Assembly: GCA_025355255.1 (NCBI GenBank)
Contig: JANYAA010000302.1
Span: forward strand, 1 to 15,548
Source: Chloroflexota bacterium
GTDB taxonomy: Bacteria > Chloroflexota > Limnocylindria > Limnocylindrales > CSP1-4
DNA length: 15,548 nt
Direction of reading: 5' to 3'
This document shows positions 845-15,461 of the stretch, piece after piece. A model generated the notes under the pieces. That model had not been told where the DNA came from. It made no database searches and worked only from the letters and a program-made list of their open reading frames with translations. Positions within the stretch are counted from its first letter, which is position 1; the number at the start of each line of letters is the position of its first letter. A program made the position numbers and the translations under genes.

Positions 845-2971
845 CTACTTGATCGCCGGCAGCAGAGCCTGTTCCAGTGCCCCGCGCAGCGACATCACGA
901 ACGTCGCGGTGAGGTGCCAGGAGTCCCGGTACACGATCATCCCGTCTTTCACCACCGGGCACGGGTCGCCCGGGCAGATGAGCGGTGTCAGGTCGATCAG
1001 CGTGGCCCCGAGGGCCGCGGCGGCCGTTGTCTCCGGGACCCCGGAGTACGGCCCCAGGGCCCGGATCCGCGACGTCTGGCACGGCCGGACATCTGAGCGG
1101 TGCCCAGAGAGACAACTCGGCACGTTGTACTTGGAGGTCGGCGCGTCCACCATGATCGCCTTGGCCCCCGGCAGCTGTCCGACAAGTCGGGCCATGGCCT
1201 GGCCCTGGTGGGCCGGGTCAGGATCGGCCGCGGTGGAGGTCACCTTGTCCTTGATCACGATGACGATGACGAGGTCCGGCTTGACTTGGCGCAGCTTGTC
1301 CACAACAAGCCCGCGCCATGTGTCGCACTCCGTGTAGGTGCGCTGGTACCAGTACGAGTACAGCGACATGTCAATGAAGCGGCAGGACAGTTTGATGTAC
1401 GGCAGGAGCTTCCAGCCTCGGTCGTTGGCGATGGCCTCGATGGCCGGGAACCACTGGGCGGCGTGCGAGTCGCCCACGAGCGCGACGGTATAGCTGCCGC
1501 TCTTGTTGCCGTACACGCAATTGCGCAGCTGGATCTGCGGCTGGCCCAGCAGGCAGCCGTCAGCCTCAAGCGGATCGGCATCGCCCGCGGCTCGGCCAAG
1601 CGATGGGCGCACGTTCGCGGGCAGCGGCTGGGGACCGTCGGGCGTGGGCGCCGGCGTTTCGCCCGATGGTGTGGGCGCCGGCGTTTCGCCGGCGGGGGTA
1701 GGGGTGGGCGCGGCGGTTGCCGTCGGGTCAGGCTCGAAGGACCCGCTGGGGTCCGCGCTGGGATCGGTGACGATGCCAGTGCCCGGGCCCCCGCCGCCGT
1801 CAAGCTGGGCAGACGCGGCGAGGCCGATGCTGCCGGAGAAGACCACCACCAGCGCAATCGCCGCGCCCGCCACGGCGAACGTCCGCCGAGCCGTGGCCCG
1901 AAAGCGCACGCCCCGGTGGATGGGCTGCTCCACGAGACGGAAGCTTGCCCAGCCCGCCACGACCGACAGGGCAGCAAGCCCCAGGCGCACCCCGATGGGG
2001 AGCTGCTGCCCGATCTCCAGCGTTGCAGCGGGGAGCACCAGGATTGGCCAGTGGACGAGATACAGCGAGTACGAGATGCGCCCGAGAAACCGAAGCGGCG
2101 GGACGGCCAGCACCGTTGCCACAGACCACGGGCGGTCGCCGGCCACGACCACGGCCGCGCTGCCAAGCGTGGGCAGCAGCGCCGCGACACCCGGGTATGG
2201 CGTACCCGGCGTGATGACCACCAGCGACGCCAGCACGGCCGCAAGCCCGGCCCAGCCCAGCGGGACGGCGATGGCGGGACGGAGGCGGGCCACGCGGTCC
2301 GAGCCCACGGCAATCAGGCCGCCGAGTCCCAACTGCCAGGCGCGCGTTGGCAGCGAATAGAACGCCCAGCCGGGGGCGGCATCTGTGAGCACGAACGCCG
2401 CGAGAAACGAGGTGACGGCGAGCGCGGCGAGCACGATGGCGGCGGCTACGCGCGGGCGATGGTTGCGTGTGGCCAGGATCAGCACCGCGGGCCAGAGCAG
2501 ATAGAACTGCTCCTCCACACCCAGCGACCAGTAGTGGATCACCGGGGACGGGGCGAGATCCGTGCCGAAGTAGTCCGTGGCGCCCGCCGCAAAGCGGATG
2601 TTGCCAACCGACAGCGCCGACGCCACGGCGTCGCCAGCCACCCGCGGCAGATCAAGCGGCGCCATCAGGAACCAGGCGAACACCATCGTGATCGCCAGCA
2701 CCACGGTGGCGGCGGGCAGGATGCGGCGCACACGGCGGATGTAGAACGCCTTCAGGTCGATATGCCCTGTGCGCTCGCGCTCACGTACGAGGAGCCCGGT
2801 GATAAGGAAGCCGGACAGGACGAAGAACACGTCAACGCCCACGAACCCGCCCTCGGTGCCCGGCACCTTGGCGTGGAAGAGGAGCACGAGCAGGATGGCG
2901 ATGCCCCGGAGGCCCTCGAGATCGGGTCGGAACTCGCCGCCCGTGACGCGACGGGCGCCCTGATAGCGCAA
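845..2971 (-). CDS. OafA/YrhL-type membrane acyltransferase with C-terminal SGNH domain
   Basis: The N-terminal part is an acyltransferase-3 (AT3) domain. It has RPDLEGLRGIAILLVLLFHA with the conserved His, then GGFVGVDVFFVLSGFLIT, the Arg-rich RRVRRILPA loop, WSLGVEEQFYLLWP, and about ten hydrophobic segments. A Pro/Thr/Gly-rich linker follows (about residues 390-450, with GETPAPTPS/D repeated). The C-terminal SGNH-hydrolase-like domain contains VGDSHAAQW (nucleophile Ser, around residue 500) and DSWHLT near the end (catalytic Asp/His). By family knowledge such proteins O-acetylate or otherwise O-acylate cell-envelope polysaccharides or lipids. The AT3 domain carries the acyl group across the membrane and the SGNH domain acts outside. 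The TTG at 2971 is preferred because GAGGGG lies 6 nt upstream; an alternative TTG at 3004 would add 11 residues but has a poorer SD. The acceptor sugar is unknown, and no glycan assembly genes adjoin it. Confidence 0.93.
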   Translation of the reverse strand: MRYQGARRVTGGEFRPDLEGLRGIAILLVLLFHAKVPGTEGGFVGVDVFFVLSGFLITGLLVRERERTGHIDLKAFYIRRVRRILPAATVVLAITMVFAWFLMAPLDLPRVAGDAVASALSVGNIRFAAGATDYFGTDLAPSPVIHYWSLGVEEQFYLLWPAVLILATRNHRPRVAAAIVLAALAVTSFLAAFVLTDAAPGWAFYSLPTRAWQLGLGGLIAVGSDRVARLRPAIAVPLGWAGLAAVLASLVVITPGTPYPGVAALLPTLGSAAVVVAGDRPWSVATVLAVPPLRFLGRISYSLYLVHWPILVLPAATLEIGQQLPIGVRLGLAALSVVAGWASFRLVEQPIHRGVRFRATARRTFAVAGAAIALVVVFSGSIGLAASAQLDGGGGPGTGIVTDPSADPSGSFEPDPTATAAPTPTPAGETPAPTPSGETPAPTPDGPQPLPANVRPSLGRAAGDADPLEADGCLLGQPQIQLRNCVYGNKSGSYTVALVGDSHAAQWFPAIEAIANDRGWKLLPYIKLSCRFIDMSLYSYWYQRTYTECDTWRGLVVDKLRQVKPDLVIVIVIKDKVTSTAADPDPAHQGQAMARLVGQLPGAKAIMVDAPTSKYNVPSCLSGHRSDVRPCQTSRIRALGPYSGVPETTAAAALGATLIDLTPLICPGDPCPVVKDGMIVYRDSWHLTATFVMSLRGALEQALLPAIK
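1644..1690 (-). repeat. In-gene tandem repeat in the Pro/Thr linker
   Basis: A 20-bp sequence beginning GTGGGCGCCGG is present exactly at 1644-1663 and again at 1671-1690, a period of 27 bp. It encodes two copies of the nonapeptide GETPAPTPS/D in the linker between the AT3 and SGNH domains. The exact DNA identity suggests recent duplication or slippage. The linker length is therefore likely variable between strains. Confidence 0.75.
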
Positions 2972-3099
2972 ACCTGACCCCTCGCAGCGGAAGTGGCGGG
3001 CCAAGTCTAGGGCGCATCCCGCCTGATGACCTCGGCGCCGGACATGCCGCGCCGTCGGTCAACCCGCGGATCCCGGTCTCCGGCGATGCGCCGCGGCGC

Positions 3100-5161: not shown

Positions 5162-5296
5162 ATGCAGTACGCAGTAATCGATCTAGGCGCCGAGTGCGGC
5201 CGAGTGGTCCTGGGTTCCCTTGACGGGCAGACAGCCTGGCCCTGCCCGTCACGGCGGCCAAGTGATGCTCCCCTGACCCCGAAGGACCACCCGTGA
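5162..5296 (+). pseudogene. N-terminal remnant of a rhamnulokinase-like FGGY kinase, now a leader ORF
   Basis: The ATG at 5162 has GGAG (5153-5156) 5 nt upstream. The first ~23 codons read MQYAVIDLGAECGRVVLGSL then DGQ. This closely resembles the start of rhamnulokinase-type FGGY kinases (pattern VDLGAxSGRVxLGxxDG, the first ATP phosphate-binding strand-loop). After Q23 the reading frame continues for 21 codons with no kinase similarity and stops at TGA 5294-5296, overlapping the GTG start of the next gene (GTGA). A full kinase is about 450-490 residues, so more than 90 percent is missing. The similarity ends at about 5230, exactly the end of the left arm of the hairpin 5221-5251. I infer an internal deletion that left the kinase's promoter, SD and start, which now may drive translation of the dehydrogenase by coupling. 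A chance 20-residue match is less likely but possible. Confidence 0.5.
5221..5251 (+). other. Hairpin with 10-bp perfect stem in the dehydrogenase leader
   Basis: TGACGGGCAG (5221-5230) and CTGCCCGTCA (5242-5251) are exact reverse complements separated by 11 nt. No T-run follows, so it is not a standard intrinsic terminator. It lies within the leader ORF and ends 41 nt before the GTG of the long dehydrogenase. It could act on mRNA stability or translation, or be a protein site with two widely spaced arms. It also marks the breakpoint of the kinase remnant. Confidence 0.6.
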
Positions 5297-6930
5297 CCGA
5301 TCTGCCCGCCACCCAGCACGCCATTCAGTTCACCGGTCCCGGCACGCTCGTGCACAACGCCGCCAAGCCCGTGCCGGCCCCTGGCCCCACACAGGTGGTG
5401 CTCAAGGTGGAGGCGACAGGGCTCTGCTTCTCGGACACCAAGCTCCTCCACGCCTGGACCAGCCACCCGCGCAAGGGTCCGGTGCTGGCCGGCTTGCCAG
5501 GGGAGGTACTGGCTGAGATCCCCTCGTACACGCCGGGGGAACTCCCCGGCACGCCTGGCCACGAGTGCTGCGCCCGGGTCGTGGCCGTTGGCTCAGCCGT
5601 GGCACACCACGCGGTCGGCGAGCGGGTCCTCGTCCAGACCGACTATCGCCACCTGGCCACCGCCGGTTCCAACGCGGCCCTCGGCTACAACTTCGAGGGC
5701 GGCCTCGCCGAGTTCATCCTGCTTGACGAGCGGATGATCCTAGACCCGGCGACCGGGGAGCGGTTCCTGATCCCCGTACGCGAGGACCCGTCCGGCAGCG
5801 CGGTCGCCCTGCTTGAGCCGTGGGCGTGCGTGGAGAAGTCGTACGCCACCTCTGAGCGTCGGGCGCCGCTCGTGGGCGGGAGACTGCTTGTGGCCGTGGA
5901 GCCGGGTGCAGCACTCGCAGGCGTCGAGGCGATGGCGGCCGTCGCGGCGCCAGTCGAGCTGGTGCGTCTGGAACCCGTCGACGACGCGGCGCTCGCAGCG
6001 CTAGCCGGCCGCCGGTTCGACGACATCGTCTACGCGGGCGCCAGCGCGGACCACATCGAGGCGCTCATCGAGCTGCTCGGCCCGGGAGGCGTGATCGACA
6101 TAGTCCTCGGCGGGCGGCGCGTGGAGCGTGACGTGGCCGTTGACGTGGGCCGGATCCACTACGACCCCATCCGCCTGACCGGCACAACGAGCGCGATCGC
6201 TGCTCACGGCTACGCGCGGATTCCGCCCGACGGCGAGCTGCGCGACGGCGACGCGGTGGCGATCGTGGGCGCCGCGGGGCCGATGGGCTTCATGCACACG
6301 GTGCGCGCGGCGACGATTGGCCGTCAGGGTCTCAGCGTGGCTGCAATCGACATCGACGACAGCCGGCTCGCCCACCTTGCCGAGGTCGCCGGGCCCGTGG
6401 CAGCCGGCAACGGCGTCGCTGCGACCTTCACCAACAGCCGTGTGGCGCCGCCAACCGAAGGCGCCTACTCGTACGTCGGGGTCATGGTTCCGGCGCCTGC
6501 GCTGGTGGTGCAGGCCGTCGCGATGGCCGCGCCGGGCGCGCGCATCAACTTGTTCGCTGGCTTCGCCGTGGGCACCAAGGCGAAGCTCGATCTCAACGCA
6601 ATCGTCGGGCGCGGGCTGTACCTCTTCGGCACAAGCGGCTCGGAGATCCGGGACATGCGCGCCGTCCTCGCGCGGCTGGAGTCCGGCCAGCTCGACACAA
6701 ACATGTCCGTGGATGCGGTATGCGGGCTGGAAGGCGTCGGAGCGGCGCTCGCCGCCGTTGAGGCCCGAAGCTCCGGCGGCAAGATCGTCGTTTACCCGGC
6801 GCTCCACAATCTCGGCCTGGTCCGGCTCTCCGAACTCGCGGAGCGCTTCCCGACGGTGGCGGCCAAGCTGCGGGACGGCCGCTGGACCGCCGAGGCCGAG
6901 GCCGCGCTGCTCACGGAAGCCTCGCGGTGA
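5293..6930 (+). CDS. Long medium-chain (zinc-type) sugar/polyol dehydrogenase, SorE-like, with two Rossmann segments
   Basis: The GTG at 5293 has GAAGGA (5281-5286) 6 nt upstream. The 545-residue protein begins as an MDR enzyme: GLCFSDTK (C45), GTPGHECCARV (H90, E91) and LLEPWACVEKSY (E175) supply the catalytic-zinc ligands. The four-cysteine structural zinc loop is absent. LGYNFEGGLAEF and the LLEPWACVE block resemble sorbose-1-phosphate-reductase-like members (from memory). Usual length is 340-410. The excess comes from a first Rossmann-like half at about residues 195-275 with a degraded loop (LLVAVEPGAALAG). The canonical nucleotide-binding domain comes later, at about 320-430 (IVGAAGPMG, then AIDID; D353/D355 suggests NAD). 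It is coupled by GTGA to the kinase remnant and, at its own stop, to the next dehydrogenase. Substrate is unknown; a ketose/polyol phosphate or sugar alcohol is likely. Confidence 0.85.
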   Translation: MTDLPATQHAIQFTGPGTLVHNAAKPVPAPGPTQVVLKVEATGLCFSDTKLLHAWTSHPRKGPVLAGLPGEVLAEIPSYTPGELPGTPGHECCARVVAVGSAVAHHAVGERVLVQTDYRHLATAGSNAALGYNFEGGLAEFILLDERMILDPATGERFLIPVREDPSGSAVALLEPWACVEKSYATSERRAPLVGGRLLVAVEPGAALAGVEAMAAVAAPVELVRLEPVDDAALAALAGRRFDDIVYAGASADHIEALIELLGPGGVIDIVLGGRRVERDVAVDVGRIHYDPIRLTGTTSAIAAHGYARIPPDGELRDGDAVAIVGAAGPMGFMHTVRAATIGRQGLSVAAIDIDDSRLAHLAEVAGPVAAGNGVAATFTNSRVAPPTEGAYSYVGVMVPAPALVVQAVAMAAPGARINLFAGFAVGTKAKLDLNAIVGRGLYLFGTSGSEIRDMRAVLARLESGQLDTNMSVDAVCGLEGVGAALAAVEARSSGGKIVVYPALHNLGLVRLSELAERFPTVAAKLRDGRWTAEAEAALLTEASR

Positions 6931-7931
6931 AGGTGGCCCGCCTCCACGGCGCTGGTGACGTGCGCGTCGCCGATGAAGCTGAGCCGGTTGCCGGGTCGGG
7001 CGAGGCCATTGTCCGCATCACTGCTGTGGGAATCTGCGGCTCCGACCTCCACTGGTACGAGGAGTCCGCGATCGGCGAGGCCGCGCTGACCGCGCCGCTG
7101 TGCCTGGGCCACGAGGCCGCCGGCGTCATGGAGACTGGGCCACGCGCTGGCCAGCGCGTGGCGATCGACCCTAACCTCGCCTGCGCCCGCTGTGACACCT
7201 GCGTTCGCGGGCTGCCGCACCTCTGTCCCAACGTCCGGTTTCTTGGCCACAGCACGACCGACGGCGCGATGCGCGAGCGGATCGCTTGGCCGGAGCGCGC
7301 CCTCGTCCCCATCCCCGACGACATGGACGACCTCGCGGGCGCCATGCTCGAGCCCCTCGGCGTGGCGATCCACGCCCTGCGGCTCGCAGCGCTGCGCCCC
7401 GGGGACAGCATCGGCATCTTCGGCGCGGGGCCGATCGGCCGGCTGCTCATCCGGCTCGCCCTCGCGTCCGGCGCCTCGACGGTTGTGGCAACCGACCGGC
7501 TGCCGCACCGCGTGGAGGCCGCCCGTTCCGACGGCGCGTTCGCCGTGCTGGTTGACGGCGGGCGCGAGTTGGCTGCGCTCCAGGAGGCACTCGGCGGGCG
7601 CCCGCTCGATACGGCAATTGAGATCGCAGGCGAGGCCGACGCCGTCCGCACGGCCGCACTGCTCGTTCGACCGGGCACCCGCGTGGTGGTGGCTGGCATC
7701 CCGGTCCACGACGAGATTGAGCTGCCCGCGTCGCTGCTTCGCCGCAAGGGCCTCGACCTGCGCTTCGCGCGCCGCATGAACCGCGTCCACGAGGAGGCAA
7801 TCGCGCTCGCCGGCCGGATCCGTCCCGCCGAGGTGGTGACGGCCGTCTACCCGCTTGAGGCGGCACCCGAGGCGATGGCCCAGGCGGCGCGCCGCGCCGG
7901 CTCGAAGGTGGTTGTCCGCCCTGCGCCCTGA
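6927..7931 (+). CDS. Zinc-dependent medium-chain dehydrogenase (sorbitol/threonine dehydrogenase-like)
   Basis: A 334-residue MDR of normal length. The GTG at 6927 overlaps the upstream TGA (GTGA), giving translational coupling. Catalytic-zinc ligands are C37 (GICGSDLHWY), H62/E63 (LGHEAAG) and E142 (AMLEPLGVAIHA). Structural zinc is held by C86, C89, C92 and C100 (CARCDTCVRGLPHLC). The Rossmann loop is GAGPIG (166-171), with D190 at the end of the second strand favouring NAD over NADP. It would oxidise a secondary alcohol of a sugar, polyol or sugar acid in the cytoplasm. Pairing with the upstream long dehydrogenase and closeness to the L-sugar island suggest a carbohydrate substrate. In some non-phosphorylative L-fucose/L-rhamnose routes a 2-keto-3-deoxy acid is oxidised at C4, and this enzyme is a candidate for that step (inference). 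It converges with the next gene with a 22-bp gap and no clear terminator. Confidence 0.9.
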   Translation: MKVARLHGAGDVRVADEAEPVAGSGEAIVRITAVGICGSDLHWYEESAIGEAALTAPLCLGHEAAGVMETGPRAGQRVAIDPNLACARCDTCVRGLPHLCPNVRFLGHSTTDGAMRERIAWPERALVPIPDDMDDLAGAMLEPLGVAIHALRLAALRPGDSIGIFGAGPIGRLLIRLALASGASTVVATDRLPHRVEAARSDGAFAVLVDGGRELAALQEALGGRPLDTAIEIAGEADAVRTAALLVRPGTRVVVAGIPVHDEIELPASLLRRKGLDLRFARRMNRVHEEAIALAGRIRPAEVVTAVYPLEAAPEAMAQAARRAGSKVVVRPAP

Positions 7932-7953: not shown

Positions 7954-9045
7954 CTACCCCTTCGCGATCTTGCCCGCGTCCCAGCGCTCGGCGGCGGTCT
8001 TGACCTCCTGGGAGGCGCCCGCGGCCGCGACCAGGATCACGTCGCCTGCGTCCACCACGATCACGTCGCGCAGGCCGATGGTGACGATGGGCCGGTCCTT
8101 CGCCAGCACCAGCGTGCGCTCTGAGCCGAGGTCGGCCCGCGGACCGCTGCCGGTCACGCCGGACGCGGCCGTCCCGCCAGGGGCTGAGGCGGCGTCCCGC
8201 TCCGCGAGCGCGGTCCGGAGCGAGCTCCAGCTGCCAAGGTCGCTCCACCCCACGGCGGCGCGCAGCATGGCCACCCGGCCCTCGCGCGCGGCGGGTTCCA
8301 GGACCGCGTAGTCGATCGATGTCGCGCGCACGCGTGCGTACGCTGCTCCGAGTTCCGCCGAACCGGCTGCGACGCCGGCTCGGACGTCCGCGAGAATGTC
8401 CGGCGAGCCGGTCTGGAAGGCCGCCAGCAGCGCGTCGATCCGCCACAGGAAAATGCCCGCGTTCCACGCGACGGGGGCGGGTCCGTCAAGCAGGATGCGC
8501 GCCTCGGCCGCGGAAGGCTTCTCCGTAAACCGCTCTACGGCAACCGCGCCCTCGTGCCCCGAGACCGGATCGCCCGCCACGATGTACCCAAAGCCCGTCT
8601 CCGGGCCGTCCGGGGCGATGCCGAGGGTGACCAGGGGGCCGTGCGCCTCGGCGGCGAGGGCCGCAGCCCGGCGCAACAGCGCGCGGAACGCAGGCTCGTC
8701 GGCGACGAGGTGGTCCGCCGGCAGCACAACCATCACCTCGTCGTTCGGGCGGCCTAGGGAGGTCGCGGCGAGCGCCACCGCGGCGGCCGTGTTGCGGGCC
8801 ACCGGCTCCGCCAAGAGCATGTCTGCGCACAGGGCAGGGAGCTGCGCTTGGACCAGGCCCGCATACCGGCGGTCGGTCACCACGGCCACATCGGCGGCAT
8901 CCACGAGGCCCGGCACGATGCGGTCCCACGTGCGCTGCAGCAGGGTCCGATCCCCCACCAGCGACAGGAACGGCTTGGGGCACTCCGGCCGCGACAACGG
9001 CCAGAGTCTGGTGCCACCGCCACCGGCGAGAATGACTGCGAGCAC
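7954..9045 (-). CDS. manC: Mannose-1-phosphate guanylyltransferase (GDP-mannose pyrophosphorylase)
   Basis: A 363-residue, single-domain ManC-type enzyme lacking the fused phosphomannose isomerase cupin of long forms. The GTG at 9045 has a perfect AGGAGG (complement of 9051-9056) 5 nt upstream. Signatures are VILAGGGGTRLWPLSRPECP with KPF, EPVARNTAAA (80-89), LPADH (108-112, metal-binding Asp), PETGFGYI (148-155), FTEKP (173-177) and WNAGIFLW (194-201). It makes GDP-mannose from mannose-1-phosphate and GTP in the cytoplasm. That is the direct substrate of the divergent GDP-mannose 3,5-epimerase, 157 bp away. The two share an intergenic region with an 18-bp palindrome, so co-regulation is likely. 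Assignment to mannose rather than another hexose-1-phosphate rests on these motifs and the neighbour. Confidence 0.94.
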   Translation of the reverse strand: MLAVILAGGGGTRLWPLSRPECPKPFLSLVGDRTLLQRTWDRIVPGLVDAADVAVVTDRRYAGLVQAQLPALCADMLLAEPVARNTAAAVALAATSLGRPNDEVMVVLPADHLVADEPAFRALLRRAAALAAEAHGPLVTLGIAPDGPETGFGYIVAGDPVSGHEGAVAVERFTEKPSAAEARILLDGPAPVAWNAGIFLWRIDALLAAFQTGSPDILADVRAGVAAGSAELGAAYARVRATSIDYAVLEPAAREGRVAMLRAAVGWSDLGSWSSLRTALAERDAASAPGGTAASGVTGSGPRADLGSERTLVLAKDRPIVTIGLRDVIVVDAGDVILVAAAGASQEVKTAAERWDAGKIAKG

Positions 9046-9078
9046 GGGTTCCTCCTGGGGAGTGGCAGCCGAGCCGAC

Positions 9079-9092
9079 GTGTCTACTGACAC
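9079..9092. promoter_or_regulatory. Short inverted repeat GTGTC-N4-GACAC upstream of manC
   Basis: A 5-bp inverted repeat with a 4-bp centre lies 34 nt upstream of the manC start in the manC/epimerase divergent region. It may be a second regulator site or part of the manC promoter. Its sequence differs from the CG-centred palindrome at 9119-9136, and at this size chance is quite possible. Confidence 0.2.
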
Positions 9093-9118
9093 ATGAGGGC
9101 TAGACAGGCCTGCGAGTG

Positions 9119-9136
9119 CGTGGTAACGTTACCACG
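9119..9136. promoter_or_regulatory. LacI-family operator, perfect 18-bp palindrome (site 1)
   Basis: CGTGGTAACGTTACCACG is a perfect 18-bp palindrome with a central CG step, the hallmark of LacI/GalR-family operators (the hinge-helix leucine intercalates at the central CpG). It lies 66 nt upstream of the epimerase ATG and 73 nt upstream of the manC GTG, so it can control both divergent units. Core TGGTAACGTTACCA (9121-9134) matches the sites at 11955-11968 and 14208-14221. The likely binder is the LacI-type regulator encoded at 12002. Confidence 0.8.
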
Positions 9137-9202
9137 ACAAGTCGACAATGCTTCTCTTCCGCCGACGTGCCGGCGCTGCCGGACGCACAGAGGTAATCCC
9201 CG

Positions 9203-10264
9203 ATGACCGCCCAGTACACCGACACGATCCCCGGCTCCGAGGTGAAGCGCGGGCTCGCCAAGGACGACCTGATCGTCATCGCCGGGGCTGGCGGCTTCAT
9301 CGCAGGCTCCCTCACGCGGTACTTCACCGAGCAGGGCTACACGAACATCCGAGCGATCGACCGCAAGCCGCTCCCGGACTGGTACCTGCGGGTCCCGGGC
9401 GTTGAGTCCATCTCCATGGACCTGTCCCACGAGCAGAACGCCATCGAGGCGGTCCGCGGCGCGAAGGAGGTCTACAACCTCGCTGCCGACATGGGCGGCA
9501 TGGGCTTCATCGAGAACTTCCGCGTTGAGTGCCTGCGCAGCATCCTCGTGAACACGCACCTGACCGAGGCATCCTACCGCGCCGGCGTGTCGCGCTACTT
9601 CTTCTCCTCCTCAGCGTGCGCCTACAACACGGACCTGCAGAAGTCGCCCGAGGTCATCGCGCTCAAGGAGTCCGACGCCTACCCAGCCATGGCCGAGCGG
9701 GGCTACGGCTGGGAGAAGCTCATCTCCGAGATGTTCTGTCAGGAGTACTGGGCGGAGCGGGGGCTCGAGACCCACATCGCCCGCTTCCACAACATCTACG
9801 GCCCCAACGGCACCTGGTTCGGCGGCCGCGAGAAGGCGCCGGCGGCCATGTCCCGCAAGGTGCTCGAGGCGCTTGACTCCGGCGACATGCGGATTGAGAT
9901 CTGGGGCGACGGGACCCAGACGCGCTCGTTCTGTTACATCGACGACTGCGTCCACGGCATCGACCTGATCATGCACACCCCTGCGCTGATCGCGACGCCG
10001 ATCAACCTCGGATCGTCCGAGCTCGTCTCCATCAACGAGCTCGTCTCCATCGTGGAGGAGATCGGCGGCGTCAAGCTCGAGCGCAGCTACAAGCTGGATG
10101 CGCCCAAGGGCGTCGCGGGCCGCAATAGCGACAACACGATGATCCAGCAGGTCCTCGGCTGGGAGCCCAACACACCGCTTCGTGATGGCATGGCTGCCAC
10201 GTACGCCTGGATCGCCGAGCAGTTTGCGGCCCGCAAGGCCGGCAAGCGCGTCGTCGAGGGCTGA
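9203..10264 (+). CDS. gme: GDP-mannose 3,5-epimerase (extended SDR)
   Basis: A 353-residue extended SDR; the ATG at 9203 has AGAGG (9189-9193) 9 nt upstream. It reads like the plant enzyme: IAGAGGFIAGSL (NAD loop, 27-38), YNLAADMGGMGFIENF (91-106, diagnostic), SSSACAY (135-141), KESDAYPA, YGWEK (Y168, K172), RFHNIYGPNGTWFGGREKAP (194-213), WGDGTQTRSFCYIDD and GRNSDN. Relative to Arabidopsis GME (Cys145, Tyr174, Lys178, Lys217, recalled from the literature), C139, Y168, K172 and K211 all match with a constant offset of -6. The reaction is GDP-D-mannose to GDP-L-galactose, with GDP-L-gulose as the 5-epimer product, using bound NAD for transient C4 oxidation. It is first in an operon with the GHMP-like and nucleotidyltransferase genes (5-bp gap, then GTGA) and diverges from manC, the source of its substrate. 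Confidence 0.92.
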   Translation: MTAQYTDTIPGSEVKRGLAKDDLIVIAGAGGFIAGSLTRYFTEQGYTNIRAIDRKPLPDWYLRVPGVESISMDLSHEQNAIEAVRGAKEVYNLAADMGGMGFIENFRVECLRSILVNTHLTEASYRAGVSRYFFSSSACAYNTDLQKSPEVIALKESDAYPAMAERGYGWEKLISEMFCQEYWAERGLETHIARFHNIYGPNGTWFGGREKAPAAMSRKVLEALDSGDMRIEIWGDGTQTRSFCYIDDCVHGIDLIMHTPALIATPINLGSSELVSINELVSIVEEIGGVKLERSYKLDAPKGVAGRNSDNTMIQQVLGWEPNTPLRDGMAATYAWIAEQFAARKAGKRVVEG

Positions 10265-10269
10265 CCACG

Positions 10270-11085
10270 ATGACCGGGCCGGTCACCGCCTCCTCTGCGG
10301 CCAAGGCCAGCCTCAAGGGGGCAATTGGCACCCTCCCGTACCGCCTGCAGCTCGCGGGTGGCTGGATCGACCAGCCGTTTATCTCGTCGCGCAACCCTGA
10401 GCCGCCGGGATCGATGGTCGTGGTGTCGCTCCAGCCCGTGGTCCGCTACATGGACCGCTGCGGGATGGCCACCGGCACCCGCGTTGTCGCCCGGGGGCTA
10501 TGGGGCGAGTCGCTGCCGGCTGGCGGGGCGCCCGCAAGCCTTGTTCGCGAGCTCTACGCCGCCGAGAACGCCAACCTGGTTGAGCCCTCCGGCTCGCAGG
10601 ACATGTGCGGCCTTGTTTACCCCGGGATCAGCCGGCTGGACTACGACGCCAACGTTGACGGGGGCTGGTTTCCCTCGGAGGTGACGTCCACCACAGATCC
10701 GGAGGTTGTCGCCTGGCTGGGGCGGGTCATCCACCTGGTGCCCGTCATGCAGCGACCGGTGGGATATGGACCGCTCGGGATCAAGCGGCTTGATCCTGGC
10801 TGGATCACGCGGCTGTCGGCCAGCGGCCGCGCCTGCTATGACGCGATTGTGGGCATGGACATCGCGGCGCTCGGCGAATCCTTCAACGAGTGCTCGCGGG
10901 CGTGGGACGCCATTCTGCCCCAGGTGTTCGTGCATCCGACGATCAACGTCGACCTCAAGGGGCTGCTCGCCGCCTACGCCGCGGACTCCGCCGGCGCCAT
11001 GATGTCGGGGTGCGGCGGCGGGTATGTGATCGTTGCCTCGGAGACGCCGCCGCCAGGCTCGTCCCGCGTGGTCGTGCGCACGTGA
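10270..11085 (+). CDS. GHMP-superfamily (fucokinase/heptose-kinase-like) protein lacking the central ATP motif
   Basis: The ATG at 10270 has GAGGG (10256-10260) 9 nt upstream, and 5 bp separate it from the epimerase. The 271-residue protein has GHMP motif 1 in the fucokinase/HddA style (LPYRLQLAGGWIDQPF, residues 22-37), the PSGSQDMCGLVYPG block with Asp111 (base-like residue in GHMP kinases), and motif 3 (GAMMSGCGGGYVIVAS, 242-257). The usual motif 2 (PxxxGLGSSSA), which binds ATP phosphates, is not visible. Its place (about residues 68-95) reads GTRVVARGLWGESLPAGGAP. The protein is also shorter than typical kinases (300-350). It may phosphorylate an L-sugar at C1, feeding the next gene, or it may have lost kinase activity and act as a sugar-binding or isomerising relative. 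Kinase function is therefore only moderately likely. Confidence 0.7.
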   Translation: MTGPVTASSAAKASLKGAIGTLPYRLQLAGGWIDQPFISSRNPEPPGSMVVVSLQPVVRYMDRCGMATGTRVVARGLWGESLPAGGAPASLVRELYAAENANLVEPSGSQDMCGLVYPGISRLDYDANVDGGWFPSEVTSTTDPEVVAWLGRVIHLVPVMQRPVGYGPLGIKRLDPGWITRLSASGRACYDAIVGMDIAALGESFNECSRAWDAILPQVFVHPTINVDLKGLLAAYAADSAGAMMSGCGGGYVIVASETPPPGSSRVVVRT

Positions 11086-11906
11086 CGGCTGCCGTCCCAG
11101 CCGCAGTGGTTGTCGAGTTTGGCCTCGACAACCTCAAATCGGACGACGTGCGGTTCCTCGAGCAGGCCGCGGCGCTGGGGCCCCTGCGCGTTCGGGTCCC
11201 GTCTGACGCGCTGGCGGCGGCCCAGACCGGAGCGGCACCCCTGTTCCCAGCGGCCGAGCGCCTGTTCCTCGCCGAGTCCCTGCGGTTTGTCGACGCCGCG
11301 CAGATCGTGGACCGGCCGGTCGTCGAGGCGCTGGTGGACCTTGCTGCCGCCGGCGAGCGTCTCGCGGTGCGCGAGGAGGATGCCGACGCCGGCCTTCGCT
11401 CGGCCGCCGAGGCGCGTGGCGTGCCGGTGACCGAGATCAGCCTCCTGGCCCGCGCCGGGTTTCCGGTTCCAGACCCAGTTGACCCGCCGCCCGGCGCGCC
11501 GCGCGTTGTGATCACCGGCTGCTACGACTGGCTCCACTCCGGACACATCCGCTTCCTCATGGACGCCGCCGCTTACGGCGCCCTCTATGCGGTGGTCGGG
11601 AGCGACCGCAACGTTGCGCTTCTCAAGGGGCCGGGGCACCCGCTGCAGCATGAGGGGGAGCGCCGTTACATGGTGGGCGCGGTCAAGTCCGTCTACCGCT
11701 GCCTCGTTTCGTCAGGCACGGGCTGGATGGATGCTGAGCCCGAGATCGCCCAGATTCGGCCGACCCACTACGTCGTGAATGAGGATGGCGACCAGCCCCA
11801 GAAGCGGGAGTTCTGCCGCGAGCACGGCATCCAGTACGTCGTGCTCCAGCGCCTGCCGCACGCTGGGCTGCCCGCGCGAACGAGCACGGCGCTGCGCGGG
11901 TTCTAG
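11082..11906 (+). CDS. Tandem-domain HxGH nucleotidyltransferase (cytidylyltransferase fold)
   Basis: The GTG at 11082 overlaps the upstream TGA (GTGA), so translation is coupled. An in-frame upstream start at 10890 would run inside the kinase-like gene and is rejected. In the 274-residue product the C-terminal half (142-274) is a complete domain: VVITGCYDWLHSGHIRFL (HSGH at 152-155), VVGSDRNVALLKGPGHPL, EGERRYMVGAVKSV and RTSTALRG (266-273, the I-S-S-T-like motif). The N-terminal half (about 9-120) aligns to it as a second, degenerate copy without HxGH (FGLDNLKSDDVRFL; APLFPAAERLFLAESLRFVD; LAVREEDADAGLRSAAEARG). Such enzymes join a nucleoside monophosphate to a phosphorylated sugar or alcohol (HldE, TagD and PCYT2 relatives). 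Here it probably activates the product of the GHMP-like protein; nucleotide and sugar are unknown. It is last in the epimerase operon. Confidence 0.82.
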   Translation: MTAAVPAAVVVEFGLDNLKSDDVRFLEQAAALGPLRVRVPSDALAAAQTGAAPLFPAAERLFLAESLRFVDAAQIVDRPVVEALVDLAAAGERLAVREEDADAGLRSAAEARGVPVTEISLLARAGFPVPDPVDPPPGAPRVVITGCYDWLHSGHIRFLMDAAAYGALYAVVGSDRNVALLKGPGHPLQHEGERRYMVGAVKSVYRCLVSSGTGWMDAEPEIAQIRPTHYVVNEDGDQPQKREFCREHGIQYVVLQRLPHAGLPARTSTALRGF

Positions 11907-11954: not shown

Positions 11955-11968
11955 TGCTAGCGTTACCA
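11955..11968. promoter_or_regulatory. LacI-family operator upstream of the lacI-type gene (site 2)
   Basis: TGCTAGCGTTACCA has a central CG and one half-site (TTACCA) identical to the palindrome at 9119-9136; the other half matches 4 of 6. It lies 33 nt upstream of the regulator ATG at 12002, the expected place for negative autoregulation. Its asymmetry predicts weaker binding than site 1. Confidence 0.6.
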
Positions 11969-12001: not shown

Positions 12002-13024
12002 ATGTCGACCCTGCACGATGTCGCCAAGCGGGCGGGCGTTTCACCGATGACCGTGTCGAGGGTCGTCAACGGCTCCGACGCCGTCAGCCCCAAACTGCGG
12101 GCGCGTGTCGAGCGGGCGCTCACCGAGACTGGCTACATGCCCAACAAGCTGGCGCGCAGCCTGCGTGCGCGGCGGACCGACACGATCGCCCTCCTGCTGC
12201 CTGACATGACCAACCCGTTCTTCACCACCCTCGCGCACGGCGTGGAGACCGCGGCCCGCGAGGCGGGGCTCACGATGATCCTGGCCAACAGCGACGAGCG
12301 CGAGGACGAAGAGCTTCGCCTCGCTCAACTGCTCTTGGAGCGGCAAGTTGACGGGATCCTGGTGGTCCCGGCCGGGACGGGGGCGGCGACCATTCGGCTG
12401 TGTCGGGAGAACGACGTGCCCTTCGTCGCGGTTGACCGCCGGCCGGAGGGGGTCGAAGCAGATGTCGTGAGGACGGATTCCGAGGCGGGTGCGCGCCTCC
12501 TGGGACAGCTTGTGGTGGGGCTCGGGCACCGCAACACCGCCGTGCTCGCGGGTCCGGCAACTGTTCCAACGGCCGCCGACCGCGTGGCGGGCTTCCGGCG
12601 CGCCATCGTGGATGAGGCCGGCCTGCCGGAGCCGCTGGTCCTGTACGGCGCGTTCACCATCGACAGCGGCCGCGAGATGGCCATGCGGGCGTTGGAGTTG
12701 GCGCCTCGCCCAACCGCTGTGTTCGCGGCCAACAACTTCATCGCGATCGGCACCCTGCACGCCCTCGACGAACTCGGAGTCCGGGTGCCGGAGGATGTGG
12801 CGGTCGTGGGCTTCGACGACCTGCCTGAGGCTATGGTCACCTTCCCGTTCCTCACGGTCGTCGCCCAGCCCGCCTTCGAGCTTGGCCGGGAGAGCGTGGC
12901 GTTGCTGCTCCACCGGCTGGCCAACCCCGATGGGCCGGCGCGCGAGGTCGTCCTGCCCACGAGGCTGGTGATCCGGCGCTCCAGCGGGAGTCCGATCGAC
13001 GTCGCCGCGCTGCCAGCAGACTGA
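12002..13024 (+). CDS. LacI/GalR-family transcriptional regulator
   Basis: A 340-residue full-length LacI-family protein. The N-terminal helix-turn-helix is MSTLHDVAKRAGVSPMTVSR then VVNGSDAVSP (1-30). GYMPNKLARSLRARRTDTIAL contains the hinge helix with L54, the residue position that opens a central CpG step. The rest is the periplasmic-binding-like ligand domain (LLPDMTNPFFTTLAHGVE, VDGILVVPAG, VPFVAVDRR, VRTDSEAGARLLGQ, ITAG-like AVLAGPA, AVFAANNFIAIG, VPEDVAVVGFDDL, VVAQPAFELGR). Its effector is probably a sugar or sugar acid of the L-galactose/L-fucose type given the neighbours (inference). AAGGG is about 13-17 nt before the ATG, a poorly placed SD, so expression may be low, as usual for repressors. 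CG-centred sites at 9121, 11955 and 14208 are the likely targets. It converges with the dehydratase gene with a 27-bp gap. Confidence 0.93.
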   Translation: MSTLHDVAKRAGVSPMTVSRVVNGSDAVSPKLRARVERALTETGYMPNKLARSLRARRTDTIALLLPDMTNPFFTTLAHGVETAAREAGLTMILANSDEREDEELRLAQLLLERQVDGILVVPAGTGAATIRLCRENDVPFVAVDRRPEGVEADVVRTDSEAGARLLGQLVVGLGHRNTAVLAGPATVPTAADRVAGFRRAIVDEAGLPEPLVLYGAFTIDSGREMAMRALELAPRPTAVFAANNFIAIGTLHALDELGVRVPEDVAVVGFDDLPEAMVTFPFLTVVAQPAFELGRESVALLLHRLANPDGPAREVVLPTRLVIRRSSGSPIDVAALPAD

Positions 13025-13051: not shown

Positions 13052-14158
13052 TCACGCGGCGATGGTCACCCTGGCTGTGGCGAGCCGCTCAATGGCGCCG
13101 AAGTCCCAGTCGATGCCCAGCCCGGGTCCGGTCGGCACGAGCGCGTAGCCGTCCTCGATAGCCAGGCGTGACGTGGTGATCGCGTCAAGCTGCGGGATGT
13201 GCTCGATCCACGCGGCGTTTGGCACGGCCCCCGCAAGGGACACGTGGAGCTCCATGAGGAAGTGTGGCGACACCGAAACGTTGAAGGCCTCGGCGAGGTG
13301 AGCCACTTTGAGCCAGGGTGTGATCCCGCCGATCCGCGCACAGTCCACCTGCACGATGGAGCAGGCATCCCGCTCCAGGTACTCCCGGAAGTGCGCCACG
13401 GAGTAGATCGACTCGCCAACGGCGATTGGCATGCTGGCCCGTGCGGCGAGCTCGACGTGGCCGCTGATGTCGTCCGCGGGAAGCGGTTCCTCAAGCCACG
13501 CGAGGCCGAACGGCTCGAAGGCGTGCGCCCGGCGGAGGGCCTCCGAAACGGTGAAGGCCTGGTTCGCGTCAACCATGATCTCGAACTCGGGTCCAACCGC
13601 GTCCCGCACGGCTGCGAGCCTGGCGACATCCTCGGCGACCCGCGGCCTGCCGACCTTCAGCTTCGCGCCGCGGAAGCCGGCGCCTTTGGCCAGGAGCGCC
13701 TCCTCGACCAGCTCGCTGGTGGAGAGGTGCAGCCAGCCGCCCTCGGTCGTGTAGACCGGGATACGGGTTTGGGCGCCGCCTGCCGCCAGCGCCAGCGATG
13801 TGCCATCGCGCCGACACCGCAGGTCCCACAGCGCCGTGTCGATGGCCGCCATCGCCAGGCTGGTGACGGCGCCCACGGCCGTGGCATGCGTCGCGAAGTA
13901 CAGGTCCCGCCAGAGGCGCTCGATCTCGCGTGCGTCGCGCCCGATCAGGCGCGGCGCGAGGTGGTCGCGGAGCAGGGCAACCACCGAGGAGCCCCCGGTG
14001 CCAATCGTGTATGCGTAGCCGACGCCCTCCGCCCCATCCGCGCACGTGATCCGGACGATCGGCGTCTCCTGTTTGACGAACGCCTGGATCGCATCCGTGC
14101 GGACGACCTTGGGCGGCAGGTCAACCTGGAAGATCTCCACACGCTCGATCAGCGCCAT
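13052..14158 (-). CDS. Mandelate racemase/enolase-superfamily sugar-acid dehydratase
   Basis: The ATG at 14158 is preferred because GAAGG sits 8 nt upstream and MALIERVEIFQVDLP begins the domain; an ATG at 14197 would start just downstream of the operator with no SD. The 368-residue protein carries the full mandelate racemase residue set with a constant +2 offset from the P. putida enzyme numbering I recall. These are K166/K168 (AKLKVG), metal ligands D197 (MVDANQ), E223 (WLEEP) and E249 (GES), the D272-H299 dyad (VDCARIGG; SPHF) and E319 (AWIEH). This places it in the mandelate racemase subgroup, whose dehydratases act on L-fuconate, L-talarate/galactarate, L-rhamnonate and related acids. 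With the divergent L-fucose/L-galactose-type aldo-keto reductase, an L-fuconate or L-galactonate dehydratase giving a 2-keto-3-deoxy acid is most likely. Exact substrate cannot be read from sequence. Confidence 0.88.
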   Translation of the reverse strand: MALIERVEIFQVDLPPKVVRTDAIQAFVKQETPIVRITCADGAEGVGYAYTIGTGGSSVVALLRDHLAPRLIGRDAREIERLWRDLYFATHATAVGAVTSLAMAAIDTALWDLRCRRDGTSLALAAGGAQTRIPVYTTEGGWLHLSTSELVEEALLAKGAGFRGAKLKVGRPRVAEDVARLAAVRDAVGPEFEIMVDANQAFTVSEALRRAHAFEPFGLAWLEEPLPADDISGHVELAARASMPIAVGESIYSVAHFREYLERDACSIVQVDCARIGGITPWLKVAHLAEAFNVSVSPHFLMELHVSLAGAVPNAAWIEHIPQLDAITTSRLAIEDGYALVPTGPGLGIDWDFGAIERLATARVTIAA

Positions 14159-14207
14159 CGGGATGGCCTTCGCGACGACGGACGGTTCACAGGTCATACC
14201 ACGGCAT

Positions 14208-14221
14208 TGATACCGATACCA
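14208..14221. promoter_or_regulatory. LacI-family operator between dehydratase and aldo-keto reductase (site 3)
   Basis: TGATACCGATACCA has a central CG and fits TGNTANCGNTACCA with the sites at 9121 and 11955. The flanks extend it to TTGATACCGATACCAA (14207-14222), in which 12 of 16 positions are self-complementary. It lies 49 nt upstream of the dehydratase start and about 170 nt upstream of the AKR start, suiting divergent control. Confidence 0.65.
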
Positions 14222-14390
14222 AAGAGCCGAAAATTGCAGGCATGGCTACCTCGAGCGACCTGATCGGTGTTCATCCTCGCACGAATTCCTTGTGGGTACC
14301 ATGAGCAATCGTTTATTCTCTGCGTCGCAGCGACGTCGTCACGCTCGGCGCACCTGCGGCAGAGGTCCAGACCAGCGTCAGGAGTGCAAG

Positions 14391-15461
14391 GTGGCGTTCG
14401 ACCCGTTCGAGACGGTGCCGCTTGGGCGCACGGGCATCTCGGTGACGCGCCTTGGGTTTGGCAGCGCAACCATCGGCGGCCTGTTCCGGGATGTTCCAGA
14501 GGCAGAGGCCGTGGAGACGGTGCGCCACGCCGAGCAGGCGGGTGTCCGCTACTTCGACGCCGCGCCCCTGTACGGCTACGGGGCCGCAGAACGGCGGGTT
14601 GGGGCGGCCTTGGCGCCTGTGCCCCGGGACTCCTACGTCCTCTCCACCAAGGTTGGGCGCTTGATTGTCCGCCGTGACCAGATCACCCCCGACATGGACG
14701 TGGACCACCAGCGGATCGACGGCCAAGACGACTACTACTACCGATCCGACGCAACCGTCCGCCCGGTGTTCGACTACAGCCGCGACGGTGTCCTGCGCTC
14801 CGTTGAGGCGAGCCTCCAGCGGTTTGGCCTCGACCGGATCGACATCCTGTATCTCCATGACCCGGATCACCACTGGGAGCAGGCGATTGCCGGCGCCTAC
14901 CCGGCTCTTGAACAGCTGCGCGCAGACGGCGTGGTGCGCGCCATCGGGGTGGGCATGAACCAGGTGGCGATGCTGACCCGGTTCGCCCGCGAGACGGATG
15001 TCGACGTGCTGCTGGCCGCCAACCGCTACACGCTTCTGGAACAAGAGGCGAGCGTCGAGCTGTTCCCCGTCTGCCAGACCCGGGGGATCGCCGTGGTCCT
15101 CGGCGGCGTGTTCAACAGCGGGGTGCTCGCGGACCCGCGCCCGGGGAGCCGATTCGGCTATCTGCCGGCGGACGACATCGTGATCGAGCGGGTTCATCGC
15201 CTCCGGCGTGTCTGCGAGCGGCACGGGATCCCGCTGCGGGCCGCCGCGATCCAGTTCGCGCTGGCGCATCCGGCGGTCACGTCGATGCTGGCCGGCGTCC
15301 GGTCCTCTGCCCAGTTGGACGACTACCCCGCGCTCATGCGCCTCGACATCCCGGCTGGCCTGTGGGGCGACCTCAAGGCCGAGGGCCTGCTCCCAGCAGA
15401 CGCCGTCACCCCCGACAGCGTCTCATCGCAAGCGGCGCCGGCTGCGCCACCGGAGGATTGA
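14391..15461 (+). CDS. Aldo-keto reductase, L-fucose/L-galactose (D-threo-aldose) dehydrogenase type
   Basis: The GTG at 14391 has AGGAG (14380-14384) 6 nt upstream and begins VAFDPFETVPLGRTGISVTR. The longer in-frame start at 14292/14301 adds a non-conserved Arg-rich leader and is rejected. The 356-residue product has the AKR tetrad D56, Y61, K87 and H156 (YFDAAPLYGYG; LSTKVGRL; LYLHDPDHHWEQ) and the C-terminal LRAAAIQFALAHPAVTSMLA. The LGRTG-x-GFGSATIGGLF start, STKVGRL and the long insert VDHQRIDGQDDYYYRSD to VFDYS are typical of D-threo-aldose 1-dehydrogenase/L-fucose dehydrogenase, the bacterial relatives of plant L-galactose dehydrogenase. It oxidises the C1 hydroxyl of L-fucose or L-galactose to the lactone with NAD(P). 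It is divergent from the dehydratase that would use the hydrolysed acid, and is followed after 4 nt by a probable FAH-family gene. Confidence 0.88.
   Translation: MAFDPFETVPLGRTGISVTRLGFGSATIGGLFRDVPEAEAVETVRHAEQAGVRYFDAAPLYGYGAAERRVGAALAPVPRDSYVLSTKVGRLIVRRDQITPDMDVDHQRIDGQDDYYYRSDATVRPVFDYSRDGVLRSVEASLQRFGLDRIDILYLHDPDHHWEQAIAGAYPALEQLRADGVVRAIGVGMNQVAMLTRFARETDVDVLLAANRYTLLEQEASVELFPVCQTRGIAVVLGGVFNSGVLADPRPGSRFGYLPADDIVIERVHRLRRVCERHGIPLRAAAIQFALAHPAVTSMLAGVRSSAQLDDYPALMRLDIPAGLWGDLKAEGLLPADAVTPDSVSSQAAPAAPPED
14875..14919 (+). repeat. Source copy of 45-bp inverted repeat (inside the aldo-keto reductase)
   Basis: This stretch, encoding part of HWEQAIAGAYPALEQLR in the AKR, is the exact reverse complement of the last 45 bases of the window (15504-15548). 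In this copy the sequence fits its protein family, so it is the original one. Confidence 0.95.

Follow-up and report, generated by a model that had tools for sequence, protein, structure and literature searches.

What does a GDP-mannose 3,5-epimerase (GME), an enzyme known for its gateway role in plant vitamin C synthesis and for its part in glycan metabolism, do in a Chloroflexota bacterium when it is encoded beside a fucokinase-like protein and a nucleotidyltransferase (NT)? The question is raised by contig JANYAA010000302.1 (C34), which in its entirety of 15,548 nucleotides (15.5 kb) is the window analyzed here; the genome comprises 2.73 Mb and is 83% complete. An earlier note on this DNA had left open whether the genes serve synthesis or salvage. 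We see roughly an even chance that the operon encodes the central part of a Leloir-type pathway for the breakdown of an L-galacto-configured sugar, L-galactose being the likeliest candidate. The fuller proposal, which falls slightly short of even, is that a minimal new family of L-galactokinases, an HxGH enzyme making a GDP-hexose and interchangeable with fucose-1-phosphate guanylyltransferase (FPGT), and a reversed GME enable the use of L-galactose in many uncultured bacteria. The genes in question are:

7954..9045, minus strand: ManC-type GDP-mannose pyrophosphorylase without a PMI domain (Pfam NTP_transferase 124 bits, ManC beta-helix 35 bits)
9203..10264, plus strand: GME, GDP-mannose 3,5-epimerase family (E 3.8e-78 to a solved GME)
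10270..11085, plus strand: minimal GHMP-fold kinase, from fold and motifs probably a sugar 1-kinase resembling L-fucokinase
11082..11500, plus strand: N-terminal degenerate nucleotidyltransferase domain of NT, with KSDD replacing HxGH (boundary approximate)
11501..11906, plus strand: C-terminal catalytic domain of NT, with HSGH and R-x-S-T (boundary approximate)

GME, kinase and NT lie head to tail and form one tight operon: the GME stop is followed after 5 bp by the kinase start, the kinase stop and the NT start overlap in GTGA, and ManC is divergent from GME. The four genes claimed by the earlier note are real and lie where it had put them, and its gene identities, operon layout and pair of alternative readings were well stated. 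Named relatives of the kinase and NT come from Chloroflexi, and the kinase groups with Chloroflexota members in the tree.

The gene set is conserved. The kinase alignment was run once against the GTDB species genomes, using the patterns GGWIDQPF and PPGSMVVVS, and of the 267 relatives found the 80 best form the set studied here. In 71 of these 80 loci the kinase is preceded by a same-strand GME at a distance of up to 2.6 kb, and in 63 an NT follows it within 2.7 kb; kinase and NT thus stay with GME in most loci, a check that the earlier note had proposed. Identity to the window proteins is 69–85% for GME, 54–71% for the kinase and 36–60% for NT. Therefore, we regard the three genes as a system. 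Among the nine loci counted without GME, a GME is cut off at a contig end in L036 and L068, and L028, L045 and L080 start near such an end, which leaves L016, L042, L073 and L074 without a local GME. By record titles the 80 loci belong to Chloroflexota (24), Verrucomicrobiota (15), Acidobacteriota (9), Latescibacterota and Planctomycetota (7 each), Armatimonadota and Spirochaetota (3 each) and Gemmatimonadota (1), with 11 lacking a phylum label. The earlier note knew of no described operon of this make-up; the module is now found recurring in eight phyla, and many uncultured bacteria of soil and freshwater share the gene set. Few genomes of a given phylum carry it. In the phylum of the window, 3 of 201 sampled genomes had a kinase match (the window's own, one NT-kinase fusion and one partial match), and in that of L026, titled Bryobacterales, 4 of 247 including L026 itself. 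This sparse occurrence suggests spread by transfer or frequent loss, between which the tree cannot decide.

The five best solved relatives of the window GME are all GDP-mannose 3,5-epimerases (GM35E), the best at E 3.8e-78; structure 2c59 is Arabidopsis GME. S137, C139, Y168, K172, K211 and R241 are present in the window protein and in all 67 full-length relatives (67 of 71 or more sequences, short fragments left out), and the numbering C139/Y168/K172/K211 of the earlier note is therefore correct. The window GME carries the hallmarks described in PMC8787198 and PMC6678494, namely the catalytic Cys and Lys, YxxxK, the upstream Ser and, as the residue activating the Cys, Arg instead of Lys. The median GME identity is 73% within the module and 51% against 11 GMEs from the phylum that are not part of a module; GMEs from other genomes of the window's phylum are only 46–59% identical. 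The module GME forms a subfamily of its own, in a catabolic-looking context. Five of six inspected non-module GMEs lie in polysaccharide-type loci, as judged by eye, and 27 hand-picked open reading frames (ORFs) around these six (L108–L113) include 6 group-1 glycosyltransferases and 4 O-antigen-ligase-like proteins. L108 holds the non-module GME nearest in sequence (59%), and no glycosyltransferase or O-antigen-ligase-like gene was seen there by eye. The glycosyltransferase-rich surroundings imply that most of the other sampled GMEs serve glycan making, which the module GME seems not to do. Bacterial GME was already known, and the described ones are biosynthetic (PMC6678494). The enzyme of Methylacidiphilum fumariolicum, MfGM35E, shares family and catalytic residues with the module GME; its context is described there as lipopolysaccharide-like, in contrast to the catabolic-looking one here.

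The kinase, a stand-alone protein of 271 amino acids, has no match at E ≤ 0.001 among the families of Pfam-A or NCBIfam, and a search of its single sequence against the PDB gave two chance matches only. The GHMP label from the earlier note is nevertheless borne out by a GHMP fold spanning most of the chain and by motifs. Of 8,000 scored proteins, 6,985 fall within the kinase family at E ≤ 0.001; none of the 120 listed has a Pfam domain. In FKP of Bacteroides fragilis, the sugar-binding and catalytic residues of the kinase are R592, W599, D601, G759, Q761 and D762 (PMC11982464). Counterparts of the first three were placed by a weak profile alignment (E 0.087) and those of the last three by the G-x-Q-D spacing alone; all six are kept in 45 aligned rows, in the case of W32 and D34 partly by construction of the scan. 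The first motif resembles that of L-fucokinase, and the product is probably a sugar 1-phosphate. The candidate glycine-rich ATP loop (motif 2), GMATGTR at 65–71, retains the motif shape with diverged letters. A dead kinase was rejected, since the general base D111, E99 and the ATP-loop-like stretch are retained. Stand-alone NT-kinase fusions of 380–385 amino acids with a single NT domain occur on other contigs or genomes (L006, L100, L101, L102, L104); they have a more canonical ATP loop, GMATSTR or GMASSTR, and no obvious operon partners.

NT (11082–11906) has one recognized domain, Pfam CTP_transf_like on residues 144–255, and its tandem architecture, also seen by the earlier note, is confirmed by the fold across the entire chain. 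H152, G154, H155, R266 and S268 are invariant and S153 and T269 nearly so in 42 aligned rows, which together with the fold gives the motifs of an HxGH nucleotidylyltransferase (HxGH and RxS(S/T)T type). Unlike in human ethanolamine-phosphate cytidylyltransferase (ECT), the N-terminal domain is degenerate and the presumed nucleotide is GTP. The choice of nucleotide comes from a gene exchange. FPGT (PF07959) was found in 15 of 16 genomes without NT vs 6 of 26 with NT, counts that are not corrected for kinship. These searches covered 42 of the 80 genomes: every one of the 17 lacking a local NT, and 25 from the 63 that have one; L061 was reassigned to the NT-bearing side, its NT lying in pieces on other contigs, and the 660-amino-acid limit for single-domain PF07959 frames was chosen after inspection of the data. 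Control genomes gave PF07959 matches in 5 of 14, above the cut-off in one. With kinship corrected, 8 changes on the best tree with one well-supported independent pair gave no decision. Because FPGT takes the place of NT in genomes without it, NT probably makes a GDP-L-sugar, and we propose GTP as its nucleotide from this displacement by PF07959. We know of no other HxGH-fold enzyme making a GDP-hexose.

These genes can be arranged into a route. A mutarotase and an importer, encoded beside the module in other genomes, would supply beta-L-galactose; the GHMP protein, judging from its fold and fucokinase-like residues, would phosphorylate C1 using ATP; and NT, or elsewhere FPGT, would make GDP-L-galactose from GTP. 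GME would then convert GDP-L-galactose to GDP-D-mannose, a chemistry known for the family in a direction that should be favorable; the equilibrium lies toward GDP-mannose according to PMC6678494 and PMC8787198. ManC would split GDP-mannose with the pyrophosphate of the NT step, which can drive this reaction, to mannose-1-phosphate and GTP, and phosphomannomutase (PMM) and ManA would yield fructose-6-phosphate. On balance the route would consume one ATP, the same as the Leloir pathway of D-galactose. In one relative the route is complete, in two gene runs (L013 and L125). The window itself holds ManC, GME, kinase and NT only. Elsewhere in its genome the Pfam PMM domain occurs at three places, the PMM query from L013 found no match, ManA gave a marginal match and no GH29 was found. 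The best NCBIfam match of ManC is GMP_PMI with 239.5 bits (equivalog cut-off 373), covering profile positions 1–344 of 467 only. A NUDIX hydrolase lies within 5 kb of the module in L024, L033, L041, L050, L053, L070 and L085, five of these seven having no ManC nearby, and could be a GDP-mannose hydrolase in place of ManC.

The neighborhood points to sugar use. Within 5 kb of the kinase, the 80 loci hold ManC (20), LacI (17), FucU (12), GH29 and AraC (10 each), ABC permease (8), NUDIX and ABC ATPase (7 each), PMM (5), FucI (4), and GH95-like protein, FucP, FPGT and ManA (3 each); the GH95-like neighbor in L038 has a GH95 Pfam match under the cut-off. Importer genes, GME, GH29, kinase and NT are consecutive in L012 and L044, the order is GME-kinase-FucU-PMM-ManA in L013, and in L051 a FucP above the NCBIfam cut-off adjoins the kinase, followed by PMM. 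Mutarotase genes also adjoin the module in other genomes. Among 113 scanned neighbor proteins, hand-picked as likely real from 223 candidate ORFs, were 17 LacI, 13 NTP_transferase, 8 fucosidase, 8 FucU and 2 WecG-type glycosyltransferases (top 25 of 85 families). Calling neighbors by the longest ORF is error-prone in high-GC DNA, and many antisense shadow ORFs were disregarded. The recurrence of LacI, ManC, L-fucosidase, mutarotase and importers with few glycosyltransferases favors a catabolic-looking salvage. Thus, together with the NT/FPGT exchange, of the two readings in the earlier note salvage gains and synthesis is less favored. Six loci, from Latescibacterota and including one Gemmatimonadota-titled record (L043, L063, L064, L065, L067, L081), have the module followed by conserved proteins of 510 and about 348 amino acids, the former PcfJ-like in L043, with no fucosidase recognized. 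In L011 the module is preceded by a GH65 family protein (5195–7573), accompanied by a GH29-like one.

Downstream of NT and before GME, the window carries putative regulatory elements and two further enzyme genes:

9121..9134: perfect palindrome TGGTAACGTTACCA, operator-like, in the ManC–GME interval
11955..11968: a further operator-like site ahead of lacI, with 2 mismatches
12002..13024, plus strand: LacI-family repressor, probable regulator of the module (Pfam LacI and Peripla_BP)
13052..14197, minus strand: enolase-superfamily sugar-acid dehydratase (Pfam MR_MLE), possible oxidative branch
14208..14221: third site, weaker (3 mismatches), in the gap separating the divergent genes for the dehydratase and an aldo/keto reductase (AKR)
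14331..15461, plus strand: AKR, L-galactose-dehydrogenase-like (start uncertain)

At up to 3 mismatches TGGTAACGTTACCA has 3 matches in the window vs 0.10 expected, and at up to 2 mismatches the 80 loci hold 20 sites vs 0–7 for six control palindromes; a chance operator was rejected on these counts. The exact word also stands before GME or LacI in L011, L022 and L037. Fifteen of the 80 relatives have a site at up to 2 mismatches, 14 of them at or just before lacI, GME or an importer operon, and in 11 loci a LacI 46–62% identical is encoded upstream of GME, at most about 2 kb away. LacI binding to TGGTAACGTTACCA probably controls the module. Genome-wide, at up to 2 mismatches, the word has 3 places vs 2 for the reversed control and alone is not enriched. 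Two of the places are the ManC–GME and lacI sites of the window. The third is on contig C190, in a locus (L117, 1–3863) with a partial L-fucose isomerase gene and, downstream of it, an FGGY kinase gene; the site, with 2 mismatches, follows the latter and precedes the point where homology to a RhaM-type mutarotase sets in. It possibly belongs to the same LacI regulon or is due to chance, the latter because the reversed control also has two places. The five best solved relatives of the AKR are all L-galactose dehydrogenases (best E 2.6e-34), and the nearest ones of the dehydratase include L-talarate/galactarate dehydratase and anhydro-L-galactonate cycloisomerase. From the AKR relatives, the window may also hold an oxidative branch. 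Further upstream, the window encodes a large acyltransferase related to SucT (845–3004; 200 bits, far under the 1275-bit cut-off) and an unusually long zinc-type dehydrogenase (5293–6930; 545 amino acids) with a long middle part between two recognized domains, followed by a second dehydrogenase (6927–7931) with no operator-like site nearby.

Which sugar and which fate are meant has to be weighed. L-galactose is argued over L-fucose since PMM and ManA need a sugar with a 6-hydroxyl. We keep this at even chances because four observations weigh against it: fucose-type neighbors (alpha-L-fucosidase, FucU, FucP, FucI) are recurrent, a candidate operator-like site lies by fucI on C190, two genomes have kinase and FPGT with no module-type GME, and module-specific GME residues adjoin the catalytic Cys and Tyr.

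The strongest competitor, to which we give about one chance in five, is that scavenged L-fucose or L-galactose is turned into GDP-L-sugars by the kinase and NT or FPGT, that GME and ManC make GDP-L-galactose from mannose, and that all feed unlinked glycosyltransferases. FKP of B. fragilis supplies fucosyltransferases with GDP-L-fucose and takes L-galactose as well (PMC11982464), and ManC, PMM and ManA could work biosynthetically. However, glycosyltransferases are rare beside the module and common beside non-module GMEs, while LacI, importers and fucosidases suggest sugar use. Somewhat less probable is that the sugar is L-fucose: the kinase and NT would activate it to GDP-L-fucose, which the GME subfamily would turn into GDP-6-deoxy-D-mannose, as a nucleotide sugar to be used later. 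The fucose-type genes FucP, FucU, FucI and GH29, the operator-like site near the fucI, mutarotase and FGGY kinase genes of the window's genome (in a count close to the control), and the module-specific residues close to the GME active site would fit, as would the kinetics of FKP, whose Km for L-fucose is about 100 times below that for L-galactose (PMC11982464). Against it, PMM and ManA beside the kinase (L013, L051, L052) require a 6-hydroxyl, a use of the product is not evident, and the AKR is closest to L-galactose dehydrogenases. De novo synthesis of GDP-L-galactose or GDP-L-gulose, in which the kinase and NT would serve some other metabolite, is improbable: although ManC is divergent from GME in the window and the described bacterial GMEs are biosynthetic (PMC6678494), this reading has no need of the kinase and NT, which most loci nonetheless retain with GME, FPGT substitutes NT, and the other GMEs of the phylum are distant and mostly in polysaccharide-type loci. 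A route for heptose or another unusual sugar, with a GHMP kinase and an HxGH transferase as in ADP-heptose synthesis, is very improbable in view of the fucokinase-like first motif and the FPGT displacement, which indicate L-fuco/L-galacto sugars, and no GmhA or GmhB was recognized by eye among the listed neighbors. Vitamin C synthesis was rejected, as neither GDP-L-galactose phosphorylase nor a lactone oxidase was recognized by eye, no dedicated search having been made.

The proposed L-galactose route resembles the Leloir pathway of D-galactose (GalM, GalK, GalT, GalE) in its mutarotase, GHMP anomeric kinase, nucleotide activation and nucleotide-sugar epimerase. It would differ in the L-sugar, in GDP instead of UDP, in the double 3,5-epimerization by GME and in the use of pyrophosphorylases instead of a uridylyltransferase. 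With FKP the module shares a GHMP kinase with an AGGWxDxP motif followed by a sugar-1-phosphate nucleotidyltransferase, but its 271-residue kinase stands alone, its tandem HxGH transferase is unrelated, and both are coupled to GME and ManC. The L-galactose catabolism described so far in the literature found is oxidative (PMC12632266): the Luteolibacter lgu cluster and Bacteroides BVU_0219/0222 act on the same sugar without nucleotide sugars, via sugar acids to a KDPG-type aldolase. The window also has an AKR of the L-galactose-dehydrogenase type. In the open part of the PubMed Central literature we found neither a nucleotide-linked or Leloir-type route for L-galactose, nor a catabolic reverse role of GME, whose comma-containing name is not searchable as a phrase.

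If true, this would be a new route of sugar metabolism, leading from L-galactose to mannose via nucleotide sugars and crossing the L/D divide by a plant vitamin C enzyme working in reverse. The kinase family and the tandem NT would both gain a function, in phyla with few cultured members, and it would become directly testable what happens to the L-galactose in polysaccharides of plants and algae.

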